DNA of 64,000 bases from Sphingobacteriales bacterium. Lineage in GTDB: Bacteria > Bacteroidota > Bacteroidia > Chitinophagales > Chitinophagaceae. A program made the translations under genes and the position numbers. Of the stretch, positions 5,583 to 22,465 are shown one piece after another; position 1 is the first letter of the stretch, and each line of letters begins with the position of its first letter. The stretch lies in contig RXJG01000005.1 of assembly GCA_003963365.1 (NCBI GenBank), forward strand, positions 136,811 to 200,810. The letters are read 5' to 3'. A model generated the notes under the pieces. It searched no databases. It had not been told where the DNA came from and was given only the letters and a program-made list of their open reading frames with translations.

Positions 5583-6845
5583 TTACACAAAGTTGAAATT
5601 TAATTTAGGTCGCACAATCCCAGCATGTTTCCCATGCCATCCACTGATGCCTCTCTTTTCATTCACTTCAAATGAAATGACATGTTCAAAATTATAAAGA
5701 CTATAAGCTCTTTCTGCTACAATCATCATAGACACAGAATAGATGCCATCATTTAATAAGTGTGCAGGTATTTCGCAAACTCCCTTATTTAATCCTTCAG
5801 GTAACAATTTTGCGTCCGTATAAACATTAAAAACACATTCCTCAGTTGGAGTGTATAAATGAAGACTCAAATTCAATTCTTTATCCGGCACATAATTCCA
5901 GAATTCAAACTCAATATTAATCGGCGTTTCTATAGTAATCGGATCAAAAGGATTAGCCAGGATCGGGAGGGCTTCGATTCGTTTCATCTTTACAAATTCA
6001 TTGCCCGGCGCATCTTCGGGTTTTGCGAATGATTGCACCATTTCACTATTGATCTCACTATGTGTTAAGTAATGATTGATGACAGTGTCTGTTTGCCCGA
6101 TCTCCACTATTTTACCATGCTGCATATACATAATAGTATTGCACAGGTTCTTCATAGCAGTCATATTATGACTAACGAATAAAACTGTTCGACCATCCTT
6201 ACTGCTTACATCTTTCATTTTACCTAATGCTTTCTTTTGAAACTCTGCATCGCCTACTGCCAGTACTTCATCCACAACTAATATTTCTGGCTCTAAGTGG
6301 GCGGCTACTCCAAAAGCAAGCCGTACATACATGCCCGAAGAATACCTTTTAACCGGCGTATCAATATATCGTTCCACCCCGGCAAAATCCACTATCTCAT
6401 CAAACTTCTGCTTTATTTCTTTTTTGGTCATACCCAGTATGGCCCCGTTTAAAAAAATATTTTCCCTGCCGCTTAATTCGGGATGGAAACCTGTACCTAC
6501 TTCTAATAAACTGGCCACCCGCCCTTTAATTTTAATGCTGCCTGTTGTAGGCGCCGTGGTACGGCTCAGTATTTTTAATAAAGTACTTTTCCCAGCCCCG
6601 TTCCGTCCGATAATCCCCAACACTTCCCCGTGTTGCACGGTAAAATTAATATCCCTTAAGGCCCACACATAATCACTGTTGCCCCTTTGTGTACGGTCAT
6701 TTGCCTCTCCTATTTTTAAATAGGGATCTTCTTTCCCCCTTAGTCTGTGCCACCACCGGTTAATATCATGGCTCAATGTTCCTGTGCCAACCTGCCCAAG
6801 GCGGTATTGCTTCGATAAATTTTCAACTTTAATAACTGTATTCAA
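5583..6845 (-). CDS. wzt: Polysaccharide ABC exporter ATP-binding protein with Wzt-type C-terminal domain
   Basis: A 420-residue ATPase of the teichoic-acid/O-antigen exporter family. Residues 1-260 are the nucleotide-binding domain: Walker A GRNGAGKST (about 80-88), ABC signature YSSGM, Walker B ILVVDEVLAVGD and the H-loop in FVSHN. Residues about 290-420 form an extra beta-rich domain like the carbohydrate-binding Wzt C-terminal domain, which recognises the finished glycan end before export. It partners the permease at 7049-7915. A 203-bp gap separates the two genes, unusual inside this otherwise tight operon. Confidence 0.92.
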   Translation of the reverse strand: MNTVIKVENLSKQYRLGQVGTGTLSHDINRWWHRLRGKEDPYLKIGEANDRTQRGNSDYVWALRDINFTVQHGEVLGIIGRNGAGKSTLLKILSRTTAPTTGSIKIKGRVASLLEVGTGFHPELSGRENIFLNGAILGMTKKEIKQKFDEIVDFAGVERYIDTPVKRYSSGMYVRLAFGVAAHLEPEILVVDEVLAVGDAEFQKKALGKMKDVSSKDGRTVLFVSHNMTAMKNLCNTIMYMQHGKIVEIGQTDTVINHYLTHSEINSEMVQSFAKPEDAPGNEFVKMKRIEALPILANPFDPITIETPINIEFEFWNYVPDKELNLSLHLYTPTEECVFNVYTDAKLLPEGLNKGVCEIPAHLLNDGIYSVSMMIVAERAYSLYNFEHVISFEVNEKRGISGWHGKHAGIVRPKLNFNFV

Positions 6846-7048
6846 CTAAAACAAACTTTAATACTATCTGATTATTTAATCAACCCTCTCACCACTTCAA
6901 CGACTAAAGATCTACTTCCATCACCCTCTCATTTCTGAATCATTTTTATTATGGTATTTCCGGCTTCCTGGCTTTGACACCCAATCTGAGTCACTTCCCA
7001 TTCCCCTGCTCGCCACTCACTACTCGCAACTTGCCACCAGAAATTCCA

Positions 7049-7915
7049 TCACACCGTATCCATAAACGTTCGCTCCACTTTATTAAAGTACATCGCTCCA
7101 AACAGGAGTACCACAATCATAAAAATAAATGGATATAATAAAGAGGAATAAGTAAAACTCCCCGTATGAAACAAGGCAAACCGGAATCCTTCCACAATAG
7201 CGCTTAAGGGATTCCAGTAGATAATCCACGCATAACTCTTGTTGGATAAAAAAGAAAGCGGGTACACTACCGGTGTCGCATACATCAGTAATTGTATACC
7301 AAAAGTAATCAGTACCGAAAAATCCCGGTACTTGGTGGTAAGCGACGAAATGATGATTCCCAAACCCAAACTGATTCCCGCCATCAGGATGACCAGCAAA
7401 GGTAACAGTAACCATTGACTTCCAAAAACAACAGGAACTTGTTTAAATAATGCATAATAGAGTATCGCAATAATTAAAATTCCAAATTGAATACCTAACC
7501 GGGCAATATTGGAAAAAACAATACTGAGCGGGAGCACCAGCCTTGGAAAATATACCTTACCAAAAATACCGGCGTTCGCCACAAAGGTGTTGGAGGTAGC
7601 GGTTAAACAGCCAGAAAAATAATTCCAGATGGTTACCCCACTCATATAAAACAATACCGGCGGTATACCATCTGTAGGGATATTGGCAATTTTACCAAAA
7701 ATTAAAAGAAACATCAGGGTGGTAAGAATAGGTTGTATTACGTGCCACAAAGGACCCAGTATGGTTTGTTTGTATTGAGCAACAAAATCCCTCTTCACAA
7801 ACAATAGCATCAGGTCCCGGTAATGCCACACTTCTTTCAGGTTCAGTGAAAATAAAGAGACCTTTGGCTTTATTTCGAGGTCCCAGGTTTCTCCTTCCGA
7901 ATTATAATGATTCAT
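7049..7915 (-). CDS. wzm: Polysaccharide ABC exporter permease (Wzm-like, ABC-2 type)
   Basis: A 288-residue integral membrane protein with about six hydrophobic helices. The N-terminal cytoplasmic segment contains the conserved LLLFVKRDFVAQYKQTILGPLW region (given here in part: VKRDFVAQYKQTILGPLW) typical of TagG/KpsM/Wzm permeases. With the Wzt ATPase it would flip lipid-linked polysaccharide across the inner membrane. It lies 30 bases downstream of the oxidoreductase gene. ABC-type export paired with an OPX/PCP system is consistent with an ABC-dependent capsule-like route. Confidence 0.92.
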   Translation of the reverse strand: MNHYNSEGETWDLEIKPKVSLFSLNLKEVWHYRDLMLLFVKRDFVAQYKQTILGPLWHVIQPILTTLMFLLIFGKIANIPTDGIPPVLFYMSGVTIWNYFSGCLTATSNTFVANAGIFGKVYFPRLVLPLSIVFSNIARLGIQFGILIIAILYYALFKQVPVVFGSQWLLLPLLVILMAGISLGLGIIISSLTTKYRDFSVLITFGIQLLMYATPVVYPLSFLSNKSYAWIIYWNPLSAIVEGFRFALFHTGSFTYSSLLYPFIFMIVVLLFGAMYFNKVERTFMDTV

Positions 7916-11890: not shown

Positions 11891-14308
11891 TTATCTGAAT
11901 AAATCCGTCAAATTGTCCCACCACTTACGGTACCAGGGCAGGTTCTCTTCGGTAAGATACCCTAACCCATAGCCATAACCATAACCATAGCCGTAGCCAT
12001 AGCCATAGCCGTAATAACCATTGGCTCCCTTAAATTTCACATCATTGATCACCAGGTTTAACCGTGGCATTTTATTTTGCGTGTAAAGTTCTTCTATAGC
12101 TCCTAACTGCCGCTTAAATGTATACCGCTGGCGGATTACAAACAAAGTACAATCAGCATAACGGCCAAGTACCAAAGCATCACTAACCAATCCTACCGGG
12201 GCGGTATCAATAACGATACATTCATAATTTTCCCGGAGGTAGTTAAATAAATCATTCATCCTGGGATCTAACAAAATCTCAGCAGGATTGGGAGGGATAG
12301 GTCCACAGGAAATCACATCCAGGTTTTCAACACTGCTGATGGGAATCGCCAAATCTTCTAAAGAGGCATTACCTACTAAGTAATTAGTCAAACCAATTTT
12401 ACGGTTTAGGTTCAATGTAGATACAATTTTAGGTTTGCGCAGGTCAAACTCCAGTAACACAGTCCTTTTACCACTCAAAGCCATTACCGCTGCTATATTG
12501 GTACTGATAAAAGATTTACCCTCTCCGCTCACCGAAGAAGTTACCAGGATGGATGGACATTTAATTTCCCCAAGTGTATGAGCCAGGTTGGTACGGATAA
12601 CCCGAAACTGTTCGGCCACCATATTGCGTTTACGCTTGGTGATAATTGCTGAACTGGGATCATCGTTATGCCCTACTTCCCCCACAATAGGAGTATTCAG
12701 TACTTTAATAATATCTTTTCGGGTGGTGATTTTATCATTGAGCAAATCAATACCATAGATTGCCACAACAGGAAATATCAATCCCAGTAAAATAGCAATG
12801 CGGTATACATTCGACCGGTTAGGACTGATAGGAATACTGGAGCTGACTGCATTATCTATTAATCGGGTATTTGATACGGTTGAAGCCAGTGAAATGGCTG
12901 ACTCTTCCCTTTTTTTCCGAAGGTATAATACTAATTCCTCTTTCACCGCCCTTTGCCTTTCAATCTCTCTTAAGGCTCTTTCTTTTTTGGGGAGGGATTG
13001 CAGTTCGGAAAGATATTTAGTATTGTTTTTTTCAATACTTGCTAAACTCAATTGATACGATTCCCGTACATTTTTTAAGTCCTCCAGCATTTTCAATCTC
13101 ACCACCTCAATTTGTGATTCGACATCAGCAATAGCTGCACTGCTTTCTGGTACATTATTTTGTAAAAAACGATTTCTTTTTAGTACCAGTTCATTAAACC
13201 CGGCAATCAACCCATTCAATACAGGGTCTTCAATGCCTAAATTCGTAGGCACAAGGTAAAACCGGTTTGCTTTATTTCTAATATAAGTATCAAGCAGGTT
13301 CAGTAATTCCAATTTCAATTGAATCCCTGATAATTGGCTTTCGAAATCATTACTGGTATTAATATTTGCTCCGCCACCCCCACCCCCGTTATTACCGGAA
13401 CTCATCGTAACTAAAAACTTGTCGCTCGATTTGAAATTCTCCAATTTACGTTCTACACTATCCAGTTCGCCTGCTATCAGGTTAAGGCGTTCATCAATAA
13501 ACCTGACAGTGTTTTTCCCTGTACGGTTTTTATCTTCCACATTCACATAATCATATTCCTTAATTAACCTGTTGATAATATCAATACCCTTGGCATTGTT
13601 AGTGGTGGAATAATTCACTTCCAGTATGGTGGCGCCACCCGGTTGAATCCGGACATTTAAATTACCCACCAGCTCTGAGGCCACCTCGTCAGAAGGCGAC
13701 CAGCTGACAATATATTCCATATTCATTACCGGTACCAGGTCTCCTCTTGGCACCAGCTTGAACTCACCGGCTGGCGTTCGAAAAACCTGGTTCAGGAAAT
13801 AGGACCGGTCATTGTTAATCCTGAACTGGTTTTCACTCAAAAAACGGAAAGTATATTTAATGCTGGTATTGCTGTCAGCAATAAATAGGGGTACAAAAAC
13901 AAATGGAGCCTGGTTATAAATTTCGCTGGTCTTAATTTTACCTTTGGTAAAATAAGTGGTATTTAATCCAAGTGAATCCACCACCCGCTGCATCAATTTT
14001 CTCGACTTCATGATCTCTATCTCATTCTGCAGGTTTACTGCTTTTTTAAAAACCATAACCTTCTCCAGCGCCTCATCATTGGAATTACTGTTTTCGTTTT
14101 TAATGATGATTTTGGATGACACATTGTAAACCGGGACCTTATAGCGCAGGTAAACCCATGCTCCCAGCAATGTCAAACCCAGTGAAAACAAAAACAAGGG
14201 GAAATAATACAGGTATTTGAATAAAAGCTCCTGCGCATTCAATGGGCGGGAACTCTTTTCCAAAATTTCCATCAGTTCCTGCGAATGCTTGGTAACACCA
14301 TTACTCAT
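11891..14308 (-). CDS. wzc: Wzc-like polysaccharide co-polymerase and tyrosine autokinase
   Basis: An 805-residue BY-kinase fusion. An N-terminal Wzz domain is bounded by membrane segments near residues 38-56 and 500-517, with a long periplasmic part rich in coiled coil. It contains a Gly/Asn-rich insert (MSSGNNGGGGGGANIN) near residue 300. The cytoplasmic kinase has Walker A SSVSGEGKS, Walker A' LLEFDLRKPK and Walker B CIVIDTAP. The tail holds eight consecutive Tyr-Gly units, the expected autophosphorylation cluster, encoded by a six-base tandem repeat. It controls chain length and export together with the OPX lipoprotein encoded just upstream. Confidence 0.95.
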   Translation of the reverse strand: MSNGVTKHSQELMEILEKSSRPLNAQELLFKYLYYFPLFLFSLGLTLLGAWVYLRYKVPVYNVSSKIIIKNENSNSNDEALEKVMVFKKAVNLQNEIEIMKSRKLMQRVVDSLGLNTTYFTKGKIKTSEIYNQAPFVFVPLFIADSNTSIKYTFRFLSENQFRINNDRSYFLNQVFRTPAGEFKLVPRGDLVPVMNMEYIVSWSPSDEVASELVGNLNVRIQPGGATILEVNYSTTNNAKGIDIINRLIKEYDYVNVEDKNRTGKNTVRFIDERLNLIAGELDSVERKLENFKSSDKFLVTMSSGNNGGGGGGANINTSNDFESQLSGIQLKLELLNLLDTYIRNKANRFYLVPTNLGIEDPVLNGLIAGFNELVLKRNRFLQNNVPESSAAIADVESQIEVVRLKMLEDLKNVRESYQLSLASIEKNNTKYLSELQSLPKKERALREIERQRAVKEELVLYLRKKREESAISLASTVSNTRLIDNAVSSSIPISPNRSNVYRIAILLGLIFPVVAIYGIDLLNDKITTRKDIIKVLNTPIVGEVGHNDDPSSAIITKRKRNMVAEQFRVIRTNLAHTLGEIKCPSILVTSSVSGEGKSFISTNIAAVMALSGKRTVLLEFDLRKPKIVSTLNLNRKIGLTNYLVGNASLEDLAIPISSVENLDVISCGPIPPNPAEILLDPRMNDLFNYLRENYECIVIDTAPVGLVSDALVLGRYADCTLFVIRQRYTFKRQLGAIEELYTQNKMPRLNLVINDVKFKGANGYYGYGYGYGYGYGYGYGLGYLTEENLPWYRKWWDNLTDLFR
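11961..12019 (-). repeat. Six-base tandem repeat encoding the Tyr-Gly tail of the Wzc-like kinase
   Basis: On the plus strand the units are CCATAG, CCATAA and CCGTAG repeated about eight times; on the coding strand this reads as alternating Tyr and Gly codons (TAT/TAC, GGC/GGT). The repeat is imperfect at third positions. It lies about 25 codons before the stop, where BY-kinases carry their tyrosine cluster. Gain or loss of units would keep the reading frame. Confidence 0.9.
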
Positions 14309-14326: not shown

Positions 14327-15148
14327 TTATTTTTTAAACAGATTAATTAACAAACTGATACTGGTAACCACTGCCAGCCCAAGCTGAATATATTGTAAGG
14401 TTTTGGTCTGCTTTTCAGGTATAGAAAATGTATTTAGTTCAACATATATAATATCATCCGGCTGTATAAAATAATAAGGGGAAGAAAAAATATTACCCTC
14501 GTTCAGGTTGATCCGGCCTATTTCCTTCTTCCCGTTCGTTTCACGTATAATCATAATATTTTCTCTTTTCCCGTTGAGGGTAAGATCTCCCGCAGCCCCA
14601 ATGGCATCAACAATCGTAACCCGGTCGTTGATTATGGACTGTTGCCCGGGAATTTTCACTTCTCCCAACACGGTAAATTTATGATTCATAAATCGTAATT
14701 CCACAACCGGATCTTTGATCTCCTTTTGTAATTTTTCTTTTACTGAGTCAGCAGCCTGGGTTCTCGTTAAACCCGCAACGGGTATTGTGCCTAAAAAAGG
14801 AACAATGATCTGCCCTGCTTCATTTACCAGGTAACCAGTTATTCCTGCGGAAATGCCATTACTTGTACCGCTACTACTAGTTACGGCAGAACTTTTATTA
14901 ATAGCTTCGAGGATAGGGGTTGCTGCTTCTTTTTCCAAAATACTGCCACTCGCCATAATACTAAGGATATCCCCTTTTTGAATAAGAGGTTCGTAAGCTG
15001 TGGCAACCTTCAAGGCAGAGTCTTTAACATTCCTGAAATACATTAATTGCTGTCTTGTCTGTTCACTTGTCTTACAACTGCTGGCCCACACCAGTAATAA
15101 AAGCAATCCGCTATAAAAAATTAACTTCTTTTCAGTTGGTTGAATCAT
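14327..15148 (-). CDS. wza: Outer-membrane polysaccharide export (OPX, Wza-like) lipoprotein
   Basis: A 273-residue protein with a lipoprotein signal: hydrophobic segment then lipobox WASSC, lipid-modified Cys25. The middle contains the PES/Poly_export domain (GDILSIMASG) and a following SLBB-like part (FTVLGEVKIPGQQSI...). A hydrophobic C-terminal helix (LGLAVVTSISLLINLF) precedes a basic end, common in Bacteroidota OPX proteins. It should form the exit conduit partnered with the Wzc-like protein encoded 18 bases downstream. It is the first structural gene after the UpxY-like regulator. Confidence 0.93.
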   Translation of the reverse strand: MIQPTEKKLIFYSGLLLLLVWASSCKTSEQTRQQLMYFRNVKDSALKVATAYEPLIQKGDILSIMASGSILEKEAATPILEAINKSSAVTSSSGTSNGISAGITGYLVNEAGQIIVPFLGTIPVAGLTRTQAADSVKEKLQKEIKDPVVELRFMNHKFTVLGEVKIPGQQSIINDRVTIVDAIGAAGDLTLNGKRENIMIIRETNGKKEIGRINLNEGNIFSSPYYFIQPDDIIYVELNTFSIPEKQTKTLQYIQLGLAVVTSISLLINLFKK

Positions 15149-15303: not shown

Positions 15304-15822
15304 TCACCAACCTGTTCCCTGTCTTCTCACCATTGCCAGGTTGTTTTTATTAATTTGGGCTACTATTTTATATCCCAAACTATTGATAACAATAACTGCT
15401 TTATTATTCAGCACCTTTATTACCTCTCCTTCTTTTTCCATAAATGCTCCCCGCTTAATAATCACTTTTTGCGAAGGCTTTATCTCTATCGACTCCAGCT
15501 CTACATTATCATATTCGTCCAGGAATTTTCTGATCAACTCAATTTCTTTATCCTTAATTACAGCCGGCTTACTGTTCCAGTAAACAAAATTTAATACCCC
15601 GTTGGTCATCCGCACATTGGTCATTTCGTCCGGCGAAATTCGGGTAAAAACATAAGATTTAAACAAAGGTTCCAGTACAACTTTTACCCGGTCACTCCAC
15701 TGGCGGCTTACTTTATTAAGCGGGCAATAAGTATCAACCCCCTTTTCAGCAAGTAATTGATTCACTTTTTTTTCCCACCGCGGTTTGGTGTAAACAGCAT
15801 ACCATTTTTTTTCGTTCTTCAT
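15304..15822 (-). CDS. UpxY-like NusG-family transcription antiterminator
   Basis: A 172-residue specialised NusG paralogue. The NGN domain begins KKWYAVYTKPRWEKKV and contains the family LFKSYVFTRI strand. The C-terminal KOW motif is IIKRGAFMEKEGEVIKVLNNKA. Proteins of the UpxY/TaeY type bind RNA polymerase in the 5' leader of capsule operons and suppress premature termination of that operon only. The ATG at 15820-15822 is preferred over a GTG at 15856-15858, because the NGN domain starts immediately after it. As first gene of the polysaccharide operon, behind a long structured leader, it fits that role well. Confidence 0.92.
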   Translation of the reverse strand: MKNEKKWYAVYTKPRWEKKVNQLLAEKGVDTYCPLNKVSRQWSDRVKVVLEPLFKSYVFTRISPDEMTNVRMTNGVLNFVYWNSKPAVIKDKEIELIRKFLDEYDNVELESIEIKPSQKVIIKRGAFMEKEGEVIKVLNNKAVIVINSLGYKIVAQINKNNLAMVRRQGTGW

Positions 15823-16136
15823 TTTTGGTTTATTGCATGGCTTCGCCACCTCAGTCACAGCTGCTTTTTATAACTGGCTGGTGTTTACGTTATTGAAACT
15901 GTTTTATCTTCACTTACCTGTAACAGAAAAGGGTATACTAAGCATACTTTATATGCTTTAATATACCCTTACTAACTTCCATCTTTTACTCACTAAATCA
16001 CTATCTCCTGCAGATATTAAAAAATAAATTATTCCATCCTCATTCAGGAATATTGAATTGTTCCAGGGCAAACGCAACATAATTTTTTAGATTACTTTGC
16101 CTGACAGATGTTTTACGGTCATGCGATGCAAATATA
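15823..16136 (-). promoter_or_regulatory. Promoter and long structured leader of the polysaccharide operon
   Basis: A perfect Bacteroidota -7 box (TATATTTG on the minus strand, plus 16129-16136) would start transcription near 16122, leaving a leader of roughly 300 nt before the UpxY-like ATG. The leader contains a large inverted repeat at 15929-15970: outer arms AAGGGTATA and TATACCCTT, inner arms AGCATA and TATGCT. This is the expected architecture for UpxY-dependent antitermination. The divergent gap 15859-16243 holds no other gene that I can support. Confidence 0.6.
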
Positions 16137-19525: not shown

Positions 19526-19921
19526 TTACAATTCTTCAATCAGTTCCTTTACTTTATTACTGATATAATCCCTTACTTTATTAAATTCTTCCGGTTCCAT
19601 GTATTTGGGATCGGGTATCTGCCAGTCAATAAATTGTTTAGCCGGCATCCACGGACAAGCATCACCACAACCCATGGTAACCACTGCATCAAATGGTGCA
19701 TATTGTTCTACTTCCTGCAATGATTTTGATTCATGTTTGCTCAAATCATACCCTAACTCTTTCATAGCAGCAATTGCTTTGGGATTTACCACGCCACTGG
19801 GTTTGCTTCCGGCACTATATGCTTCCACTTCATCTCCCCCATGAATAATGGCAAACGCCTGGCTCATTTGAGAACGGTTACTGTTTTCTACACAAACAAA
19901 AAGCAGTTTCTTTTTTGACAT
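19526..19921 (-). CDS. arsC: Arsenate reductase, thioredoxin-coupled type
   Basis: A 131-residue low-molecular-weight-phosphatase-fold reductase that converts arsenate to arsenite. The phosphatase loop C10-VENSN-R16 binds arsenate. C85 and C89 (MGCGDACPW) provide the other two redox cysteines of the Staphylococcus pI258-type triple-cysteine relay, which is recycled by thioredoxin. The acid motif PDPKY is present. It is the last gene of the ars operon, six bases after the aquaporin gene. Confidence 0.93.
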   Translation of the reverse strand: MSKKKLLFVCVENSNRSQMSQAFAIIHGGDEVEAYSAGSKPSGVVNPKAIAAMKELGYDLSKHESKSLQEVEQYAPFDAVVTMGCGDACPWMPAKQFIDWQIPDPKYMEPEEFNKVRDYISNKVKELIEEL

Positions 19922-19926
19922 AATTT

Positions 19927-20565
19927 TTATTGTTTGATGATTTTACATACTATAACAGCTATTAAAGCACCAATAAACGGCGCTGTTAAATAAACCCATA
20001 TATCATTAAAATGTCCGCTTACTATTGCAGGTGCTAATGATCTTGCAGGGTTCATAGAGGCTCCCGAAACAGGTCCGGCAAACATTGCTTCCAGTAACAC
20101 TACACTTCCTATTGCAAGTCCTGCAAACATTCCCTGTTCTTTAGAGCCTGTTGCCACCTGTAAAATGACAAACATTAGAAAGAAGGTAAGCAGCACTTCC
20201 AAAATAAATGATTGGATAGCTGAACCGCCTGGAATGGTGGCACCCAGTAATGAATTAGCAGGGAATAACAACTTAAGCGCAGTACTTGCTGCTATAGCCC
20301 CTGATAGCTGACTGGTTAAATAAGGGATCGTTTTCTTCCATTCAAAATTTTTATTGACTGCAAAAGCAATAGTAACAGCAGGATTTAAATGTGCACCTGA
20401 AACATCACCAACTGCATATATCATTGCCATTACAACAAGTCCAAAAGTTATAGCGATACCTGCATGCGTTACCTGTCCATTCGAAACTTCATTAATTACA
20501 ACCGCACCAGTTCCACAAAATACAAGCGTAAAAGTTCCAATAAATTCAGCCAGGTATTTTCTCAT
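19927..20565 (-). CDS. MIP-family channel (aquaporin/aquaglyceroporin) of the ars operon
   Basis: A 212-residue channel with six helices and the two pore-forming half-helices carrying NPA motifs (N61-P-A in GAHLNPAVT and N172-P-A in GASMNPARS). Many such channels pass uncharged arsenous acid. In Sinorhizobium an ars operon lacks an efflux pump and uses the aquaglyceroporin AqpS as arsenite exit with ArsC. No ArsB or Acr3 gene is visible here, so this channel may serve that role. Whether it is water- or arsenite-selective cannot be read directly. Confidence 0.9.
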   Translation of the reverse strand: MRKYLAEFIGTFTLVFCGTGAVVINEVSNGQVTHAGIAITFGLVVMAMIYAVGDVSGAHLNPAVTIAFAVNKNFEWKKTIPYLTSQLSGAIAASTALKLLFPANSLLGATIPGGSAIQSFILEVLLTFFLMFVILQVATGSKEQGMFAGLAIGSVVLLEAMFAGPVSGASMNPARSLAPAIVSGHFNDIWVYLTAPFIGALIAVIVCKIIKQ

Positions 20566-20624
20566 GCTTTTATATTTTTCTTCATCATTTACAACTATTA
20601 AATGCTAATGCAGTTGAAAATAAT

Positions 20625-21482
20625 TTAACAGCATCCGCTGCCCGGCTCACAGCATTTGCGTTCATCTTTAGCTGGTTTTTCAGCATACACCGTTACACTC
20701 AATATTCTTAAGCTACTATTCTTATATTCATTTACTTCCTCTTCACTTAAGTAATTCGCCAGGATATCATCCGGAATATTGATCACCTTTTCCTTCTGCA
20801 GCGTAATATTTACAAACCCTGCTTCTCTAATGATGGACAAATAATTTTCTTTTTGAATAGCGCCGCTTACACAACCTGCATACAATTCAGCAACCTCTTT
20901 CCATTTAGCAGGCAACTCACCATTTAATACAATATCCGAGATAGAAAAATGTGCGCCGGGTTTTAAGGTCCTGTAAATTTCGCTGATCACTTTATGTTTG
21001 TTTGGCACAAGATTCAGGACACAGTTACTTACAATTACATCAGCATAATTGCTGGTTACCGGCATATCTTCAATATCACCTAAACGAAATTCTACATTAT
21101 TATATCCAACTTTTTCTGCATTGGCCCCCGCTTTGGTAACCATAGCTTCTGTAAAATCAATACCAAGCACTCTTCCTTTTTCTCCAACTATCCGCCTGGC
21201 AATAAAAGCATCATTGCCGGCACCGCTTCCCAAATCAATTACCGTGTTTCCTTTCCTGATTTGTGCAAACTCAGTTGGCAAACCACAGCCTAATCCTAAA
21301 TCGGCATCAGGATTATATCCTTCCAGCTTTGTGTAATCATCGGCCATAATATTATAAACATCCTCCCCACAACAGGATGAAGTAGCTCCGCAACAGGAAC
21401 TGAGATTTTGCGACTGTGATTGACTGGCAATGGCTGCATATTTTTCCTTTACCAGTTCTTTTAATTGAGCTTCGTTGTTCAT
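20625..21482 (-). CDS. arsM: Arsenite S-adenosylmethionine methyltransferase
   Basis: A 285-residue ArsM that methylates arsenite stepwise to volatile or excreted species. The three conserved arsenic-binding cysteines are visible as C66 (GLGCGLP), C154 (VSNCVLNL) and C204 (YAGCVSGAI). The SAM site is VIDLGSGAGNDAF. Additional cysteine pairs flank the domain (C30/C31, C37/C38 and a CCEPGSGCC tail), which may capture metalloid. It lies between arsR and the aquaporin gene and is probably cotranscribed. Confidence 0.95.
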   Translation of the reverse strand: MNNEAQLKELVKEKYAAIASQSQSQNLSSCCGATSSCCGEDVYNIMADDYTKLEGYNPDADLGLGCGLPTEFAQIRKGNTVIDLGSGAGNDAFIARRIVGEKGRVLGIDFTEAMVTKAGANAEKVGYNNVEFRLGDIEDMPVTSNYADVIVSNCVLNLVPNKHKVISEIYRTLKPGAHFSISDIVLNGELPAKWKEVAELYAGCVSGAIQKENYLSIIREAGFVNITLQKEKVINIPDDILANYLSEEEVNEYKNSSLRILSVTVYAEKPAKDERKCCEPGSGCC

Positions 21483-21513
21483 GGCTTTACTTTTTATGTT
21501 TATATTATACTTT

Positions 21514-21849
21514 TTAACAACAGGCTTTTTCGTTTTTAATCTTCAGGTTGGCAAACAAACCATTGAATTCATTATTGAATTTTTCAAAAGCCTTCCAGTT
21601 AATACAATAACAACTGCGTGGACCATCTATTGTTCCATTGATCAATCCTGCATTCTTCAATTCTTTTAAATGTTGTGATACGGTTGATTGTGCCAATGGT
21701 AATACATCCACTATCTCTCCGCAAATGCATTTGTTATGCTGAGCCAGTACTTTTAATATAGCAATACGGGCAGGATGACTCATAGCTTTGGCAAAAGCTG
21801 CCAGGTCCTGTTCCTTTTGTGTAAACTCTTCTTTTTTATGAAATGCCAT
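21514..21849 (-). CDS. arsR: ArsR-family metalloid-responsive repressor
   Basis: A 111-residue winged-helix repressor. The recognition region [13 protein letters not shown] follows a metalloid-site motif CICGE (C41, C43) of the ArsR/SmtB type. Further cysteines at 80, 82 and the C-terminal CC pair could complete arsenite binding. It should repress its own operon and release DNA on arsenite binding. Its start overlaps the end of the upstream methyltransferase by 14 bases, so it is translated from the same transcript. A candidate operator at 22532-22547 straddles the -7 box. Confidence 0.94.
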
Positions 21850-22465
21850 AGCTGGTTGTTTTTAAAAAACTGCAGTATAAAAAATTTTGAATAGTATTGA
21901 ATGGTGTAAGATGATCAGCAGTGATACATTTGATCTTATGAAAATACTTTTTTACAAATGCAGATAAACTGCTTTCATTATATTGCTTAACCGGTAAGCC
22001 ACTGCATTCATCCGGCCCCTGGTCAGAAAAAGCACCAATGATGATCTTAGCATTTGGTTTTAAATATTTGTTAGCTGTTTCTAAATATAGTTTCCGGTCT
22101 GCTTCATCGGTTAAGAAATGTAATACAGCCCTGTCGTGCCATACATCAAACTTTTTAGCCGGAGCAAAACCATTTATATCTGCCACAATCCAATTTACCA
22201 GTTTTGCTTTTTCTCCCAACCGCTGAATTGATTTTTCCAGTGCTTTCTCAGAAATATCCAGCACCGTAATATCTGAATAACCTTCCTGCAATAAATAATC
22301 AACAAGATTACCATCTCCTCCCCCCACATCAATAACAGCCGCCTCTTTTTGAATATTCAGCTCTTTAAAAAAGCGCAATGAAACTTCCGGTTTTGACTGA
22401 TACCAGCTTACATCCATCGAGTCTTTATTGCCATAAACTTTCTGCCAGTGTTCCCGGGTATTCAT
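21836..22465 (-). CDS. Class I SAM methyltransferase, first gene of the ars operon
   Basis: A 209-residue methyltransferase unlike ArsM. It begins [22 protein letters not shown], a pattern found in thiopurine/tellurite-resistance-like and related small methyltransferases. The SAM site is [16 protein letters not shown] and the later motif [10 protein letters not shown] is typical of the same subgroup. Being promoter-proximal and overlapping arsR ties its expression to arsenic. A role in detoxification of methylated or thiolated arsenicals is suggested by position only. The substrate is unknown. Confidence 0.85.

Follow-up and report, generated by a model that had tools for sequence, protein, structure and literature searches.

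The C-terminal tail of a Wzc-like tyrosine kinase, encoded in a 64,000-nucleotide stretch of Chitinophagaceae DNA (hereafter the window), carries eight tyrosines in a row at every second residue, and we put the probability at about 0.8 that this tail is a longer version of the YxY phosphorylation ratchet already described, with selection for a tyrosine in every other position. The DNA repeat that encodes this ladder would then exist largely because the tract has to code for Tyr-Gly; selection on the protein would maintain it, and now and then it would gain or lose length, with hints of 12-bp steps. The observations directly support the protein family, the ladder, its pitch of two and the slow change in the number of its units.

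The 805-aa ORF that ends in this tail encodes a Wzc-like BY-kinase, an assignment that its sequence matches and the structural model make sound. Its domain order is an N-terminal Wzz-like region, a GNVR region, the kinase domain and the tyrosine tail. Pfam GNVR and CbiA are above cut-off and Wzz is below it (19.8 bits vs 25.5), TIGR01007 (polysaccharide biosynthesis tyrosine autokinase) scores 154 bits at a cut-off of 108, and the PDB sequence matches are Wzc and CapB structures. Residues 519-805 (287 aa) were modelled with AlphaFold2 from an alignment of 65 sequences (64 references and the window protein, L038 omitted), with a mean pLDDT of 87.1. In the PDB, Foldseek places this model closest to chains of Wzc and CapAB (E about 1e-21), with Etk also among the matches. 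The periplasmic Wzz/GNVR part is flanked by two putative membrane helices, hydrophobic stretches identified by eye (residues 36-54 and 498-523), and lies in the same chain as the Walker motifs, the Wzc/CapB fold and the C-terminal tyrosine cluster. Lys598 and Asp701 are each invariant in 130 of 130 homologues. The same genome holds a second Wzc-like kinase (G000:C4:206276-208522, L002), 29% identical, with a tail of scattered tyrosines and no Tyr-Gly ladder.

Table 1. Features of the kinase gene and its neighbourhood, in window coordinates.
Feature	Position	Strand	Remarks
NusG-like antiterminator	15304..15858	-	head of gene run
Wza-like polysaccharide export protein	14327..15148	-	Poly_export, SLBB
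Wzc-like BY-kinase (PCP-2a type)	11891..14308	-	805-aa ORF; Pfam, TIGR01007 and PDB matches
Cytoplasmic kinase domain	12035..12754	-	residues 519-758
Walker A	12512-12526	-	GEGKS 595-599, K598; within kinase domain
Walker A'	12431-12451	-	EFDLRKP 620-626; within kinase domain
Walker B	12194-12211	-	IDTAPV 700-705; within kinase domain
Gln734 codon	12107..12109	-	aligned with E. coli K30 Wzc Glu675; codon position from residue number
(Tyr-Gly)8 ladder	11966..12013	-	residues 766-781; eight hexamers of four kinds
Predicted amphipathic C-terminal helix	11897..11935	-	WYRKWWDNLTDLF; residues 792-804, AlphaFold2
ABC-2 membrane subunit (Wzm-like)	7049..7915	-	same gene run
ABC ATPase (Wzt-like)	5583..6845	-	same gene run

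The first-pass annotation had described a Wzc-like kinase whose phosphotyrosine tail consists of about eight Tyr-Gly units encoded by a hexanucleotide repeat. Pfam, TIGR01007, the PDB sequence matches and Foldseek all agree with the kinase, and the repeat is as described: the stretch named translates as GYYGYGYGYGYGYGYGYGLG, contains (YG)8 and is reported by TRF as a period-6 array at 11967-12010 (7.3 copies, 89% matches), with a second row for the same array at period 18 (2.7 copies). The repeat is the tyrosine tail of the kinase, but the tyrosines do not form the end of the protein, as 24 residues remain after the last YG unit (the ORF ends ...GANGYYGYGYGYGYGYGYGYGLGYLTEENLPWYRKWWDNLTDLFR). 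Composition alone would yield eight consecutive YG at about 1e-22 per site, so the ladder is not due to chance. It lies inside a disordered stretch of the AlphaFold2 model, residues 761-789, and extra tyrosines stand outside the pure run at Tyr765 and Tyr784.

What is maintained in such tails became apparent in a survey of 130 homologous loci, drawn from 65 genera of the family (129 genomes). These loci are the best-scoring rows of a search with matches in 211 of 244 genomes, several second paralogues and lower rows being left out; L038, with a truncated frame, is kept in the counts, and L159 yielded no ORF under the filter used. All but a few of the 130 homologues have a Tyr-Gly-rich tail. 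In the 128 tails that were parsed (all except L071 and L126), tyrosines follow each other at a spacing of two residues in 778 of 1225 cases; Gly fills the gap in 691 of these, and Asn, Ser, Arg and other residues come next. The longest chain at pitch 2 averages 5.71, vs 2.19 ± 0.06 in shuffled tails. In L027 the intervening residue changes while the tyrosines stay (YGYGYGYGYGYSYNYNYSYSY), and the ladder continues as YSYNY... in L027, L051, L075 and L083. It is thus the tyrosine spacing that is conserved rather than the DNA repeat. These persisting tyrosines also bear on the idea that the Tyr-Gly segment is a low-complexity, disordered spacer, in which the number of tyrosines would be meaningless. 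The disorder of the segment in the model and the range of the longest run in the family agree with a spacer, yet pitch-2 tyrosines are kept where the residue between them drifts, and the available text of PMC8285477 and PMC11986026 presents the tyrosine tail as a known BY-kinase substrate; we hold the spacer to be unlikely.

In E. coli Wzc, according to the accessible parts of PMC11986026, one tyrosine (i) occupies the active site and tyrosine i-2 a pocket, and the tail becomes ordered when a tyrosine is supplied where i-2 lacks one. Phosphorylation there starts at the C-terminal end and works inward step by step until the octamer comes apart (PMC8285477, PMC11986026, in the sections at hand), and by the available text of PMC8285477 no single tyrosine is essential or sufficient. 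The window protein has tyrosines at i and i-2 repeatedly, eight of them at pitch 2 from residue 766 to 780. To account for this arrangement, we propose that the ladder acts as the autophosphorylation tail of the kinase, with a tyrosine at every second residue. One tyrosine would enter the active site of the neighbouring subunit, the pocket would meanwhile hold the tyrosine located two residues upstream, and each phosphorylation would advance the tail by one YxY step. The Tyr-Gly repetition would make every step identical and so lengthen the run of the ratchet, and the phosphates carried by the ladder would loosen the ring. Phosphorylation of the ladder tyrosines, disassembly of the ring and an effect on the polymer would be expected here by analogy.

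Several points sit less easily with this ratchet reading. The E. coli tail enters the active site by its free end, whereas here the ladder is followed by further residues. Tails with a longest run of 0-3 units are also present in the family, which can therefore do without a long pure ladder. Gap events per 1000 aligned residues number 9.67 in the tail vs 1.13 in the core, the former rate also counting tail parts outside the ladder, and the number of units is plainly variable. Finally, E675 and P536 of the E. coli enzyme align with Gln and Ser, and the part that rejects phosphotyrosine may work differently.

Known BY-kinases help to place the window protein. With E. coli K30 Wzc (PMC11986026, PMC8285477; PDB 7nhr and later) it shares the kinase fold, the Walker motifs, tyrosines at i and i-2 and a C-terminal tail. 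The E. coli tail, as far as the available text of these papers goes, has a few YxY steps and ends at about residue 721, just after Tyr718, whereas in the window protein eight pure steps lead into a segment of 24 residues that includes the predicted helix. S. aureus CapAB (PDB 2ved, 3bfv) has the same kinase fold and a C-terminal tyrosine cluster but consists of two chains, and the accessible text of PMC6441080 names three C-terminal tyrosines, which are spaced more widely. P. gingivalis Ptk1, from the same phylum, also carries a tyrosine-rich C-terminal cluster, and its autophosphorylation has been demonstrated (PMC4082711, in the part available, which mentions no repeat). Searches of the open-access literature turned up the YxY ratchet paper but nothing on Tyr-Gly repeat number or slippage in BY-kinase tails.

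How does the number of steps change? Among the 130 homologues the longest pure Tyr-Gly run spans 0-12 units. In the closest congeneric pairs of 28 genera (identity at least 60%), the unit number is the same in 19 and differs in nine, by one unit in seven pairs, by two in one and by four in one. It is the same in 12 of the 16 closest pairs at 80% identity or above, and in 12 of the 20 in which one or both partners reach four units. Judged from these alignments, unit number shifts as species diverge, more quickly than core length does but still slowly.

The source genus is represented by three genomes, one per species, two of which have the kinase gene. In the sister species (L003) the kinase is 91% identical, the gene as a whole is changed at 41% of its four-fold sites, and the ladder likewise has eight units of four hexamer kinds, with at most two identical neighbours. 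The two ladders show five synonymous differences where 3.8 are expected from point substitution, the expectation being derived from the rest of the gene; in register, one falls in Tyr codons (0.8 expected) and four in Gly codons (3.0 expected). Slippage is unneeded to explain the difference between these tracts. A search of genome contigs returned one locus, with the same tail as that of the sister species.

These comparisons weigh on another reading of the repeat, namely that it is a contingency tract in which frequent slippage adds or removes tyrosines and gives graded variation within a population. The hexamer repeat is in frame, and the nine differing pairs show that unit number can vary between congeners. 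Genus g21 adds pure hexamer runs (nine TATGGA in L115, six TATGGT in L119, seven in L122) and a closest pair, L119 vs L122, with 7 vs 8 units; if a fast-changing ladder exists, this genus is the best place in the family to look for real slippage. The window tract itself is a degenerate repeat and no pure microsatellite. Its hexamers are, in order, TACGGC, TATGGC, TATGGC, TACGGC, TATGGT, TATGGT, TATGGC and TATGGG, so that instead of the long pure repeat of a contingency locus we find at most two identical hexamers in a row. The sister species, moreover, has the same unit number.

Growth by copying of neighbouring units should also leave adjacent hexamers that resemble each other. We shuffled the Tyr and Gly codons within each tract and found no excess of identical adjacent hexamers, either in 99 tracts (108 observed vs 122.0 ± 7.8 shuffled) or in a set of 61, made of one tract per family genus and 15 others from the phylum (63 vs 69.1 ± 6.2). 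Synonymous differences in register, counted over 18 non-independent pairs, are near expectation, with 30 in Tyr codons (34.7 expected) and 66 in Gly codons (59.1 expected). Active avoidance of identical neighbours was considered as well and is weak: 0.04 of the shuffles are as low for the 99 tracts and 0.19 for the 61. As to the first-pass annotation, which had proposed that slippage adds or removes units in frame and so yields graded variation, its in-frame variation holds between species, while the frequent form of the claim finds no support here, given the impure tract, the equal number in the sister species and the lack of an adjacent-hexamer excess. Rapid slippage at the window locus is not supported by the sequences compared, and we regard a contingency tract as very improbable.

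The same data make a slow turnover of unit number in the family likely. In one form of it, rare duplications or losses, often of 12 bp (two units), would occur while selection holds the number near an optimum for each lineage, a reading to which we give even odds and which can hold together with the ratchet ladder. Its footprint would be the identity of hexamers two units apart, which exceeds the shuffled value in 99 tracts (131 vs 99.0 ± 7.2) and in 61 (75 vs 56.2 ± 5.6). Codon-pair preference was tried as a source of this excess and rejected: with a null weighted by the preferences measured outside the tails, the excess still stood in 88 tracts (106 vs 85.1 ± 6.7), 27 of which come from additional loci, including genus g108. 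The two closest pairs, those of g83 and g63, in addition, have more Tyr-codon changes than expected (3 vs 0.5 and 3 vs 0.7) at constant length (12 = 12 and 7 = 7 units). Against this slow turnover, the Gly-codon changes of these pairs are fewer than expected (1 vs 3.1 and 0 vs 2.2), so that total change is not raised, and the alternation of synonymous codons could be selected directly. Hexamers four units apart show no excess in the codon-pair-weighted analysis of the 88 tracts, and where closest pairs differ in unit number, the step is usually one unit rather than two. A weaker excess at three units appears in the 88-tract set (80 vs 66.2 ± 6.2) and is absent from the analysis of the 99 and 61 tracts. 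On balance, duplication or loss of 12 bp is a plausible slow mode in the family. The g108 set, from a genus that we take to be on the Flavobacterium side, is at 50-68% identity too diverged for strain-level comparison.

Sequence statistics and the model suggest that in this branch the ladder is usually not the end of the protein and is followed by an amphipathic C-terminal helix. In the window protein the predicted helix has a pLDDT of about 72-74, and its last 18 residues have a helical moment of 0.90, higher than in any other of the 65 genus representatives. Across the family the ladder is followed by a median of 29 residues (range 1-50), and the moment of the last 18 averages 0.587 at 100 degrees vs 0.447 ± 0.012 in shuffled sequences, falling below the shuffled value at 160 and 180 degrees. 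The excess amounts to 7.7 standard deviations with one protein per genus, 2.9 in 29 g108 loci and 3.9 in 24 other phylum-search loci, some of which are of g108 or of the family. The last 20 residues have a mean net charge of +4.2 and a tryptophan share about ten times that of the rest; with a net charge of -1, the window protein runs opposite to this trend. A moment above 0.45 together with a net charge of at least +2 is found in 99 of 130 family members and in 15 of 29 g108 loci. As controls we took 12 plasmid BY-kinases of other groups, from 40 listed matches (633 records): ten of them end within seven residues of the last tyrosine, and their moments range from 0.14 to 0.52. Three of the 12 are from Bacteroidales, so the helix is not phylum-wide. 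Outside Bacteroidota, L205, on a Cetobacterium plasmid, has a basic extension after its tyrosine tail and is possibly a parallel case. We found no report of an amphipathic C-terminal helix in a BY-kinase in the open-access literature; in the available text of PMC6441080 the word 'amphipathic' refers to another protein.

The pocket, too, differs from that of E. coli. There, Glu675 is the acid proposed to reject phosphotyrosine (PMC11986026, in its accessible sections). By a single pairwise alignment its equivalent here is Gln734, and the aligned position holds Gln in 119 of 130 homologues and Glu in none, with Gln alone in 56 of 65 genera; by this alignment the window protein lacks the acidic pocket residue of the E. 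coli ratchet. The 29 g108 proteins have Met (15), Leu (9), Phe (2) or Gln (1), two being unread, and the position aligned with E. coli P536 is Ser in 112 of 130. The pocket Gln of this branch was not found described in the open-access literature. We can envision the ladder as a loop held at both ends, by the kinase domain and by a C-terminal helix lying on the membrane or the ring, in which phosphates are counted until the helix is released and ladder length sets their number. With the loss of the acid proposed to give direction in E. coli, direction would perhaps be given by the anchored end; this picture is tentative, and we would bet against it.

The lengthened ratchet that we favour matters because its ladders form a natural series, from 0 to 12 pure steps in one family, of the very stepped element that the E. 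coli model says is counted. This series makes it testable whether ring stability or polymer export depends on how far phosphorylation has gone. Since a helix commonly follows the ladder and the pocket acid is missing, the E. coli picture probably does not transfer unchanged to these Bacteroidota, and both the helix-capped ladder and the pocket are distinguishing features of this branch worth attention. The YxY ratchet is known; the long Tyr-Gly ladder with its helix and the pocket Gln may perhaps be new.

By analogy with E. coli and with Klebsiella, where Wzc variants alter capsule chain length (PMC10597399, in the text available), phosphorylation may set polymer length here. The kinase gene has the Wza-like exporter on one side and an asparagine synthase on the other, all within a run of minus-strand genes. 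Past the end of the window, some 33 kb distant, this run reaches a CpsB/CapC phosphatase (G000:C1:115228-115965), likely the partner phosphatase of the kinase. No Wzx flippase was seen among the part of the ORFs of the run that was scanned, and a 457-aa protein that matches no family but shows some ten hydrophobic stretches is a candidate for Wzy. An ABC-2 (Wzm/Wzt-like) pair at 5583-7915 shares the run with the Wza/Wzc pair, giving mixed signals as to the export route. Elsewhere in the window, a possible arsenic cluster lies at 19526-22465, where we take the genes to encode a phosphatase of the arsenate-reductase type, methyltransferases and an aquaporin-like channel.
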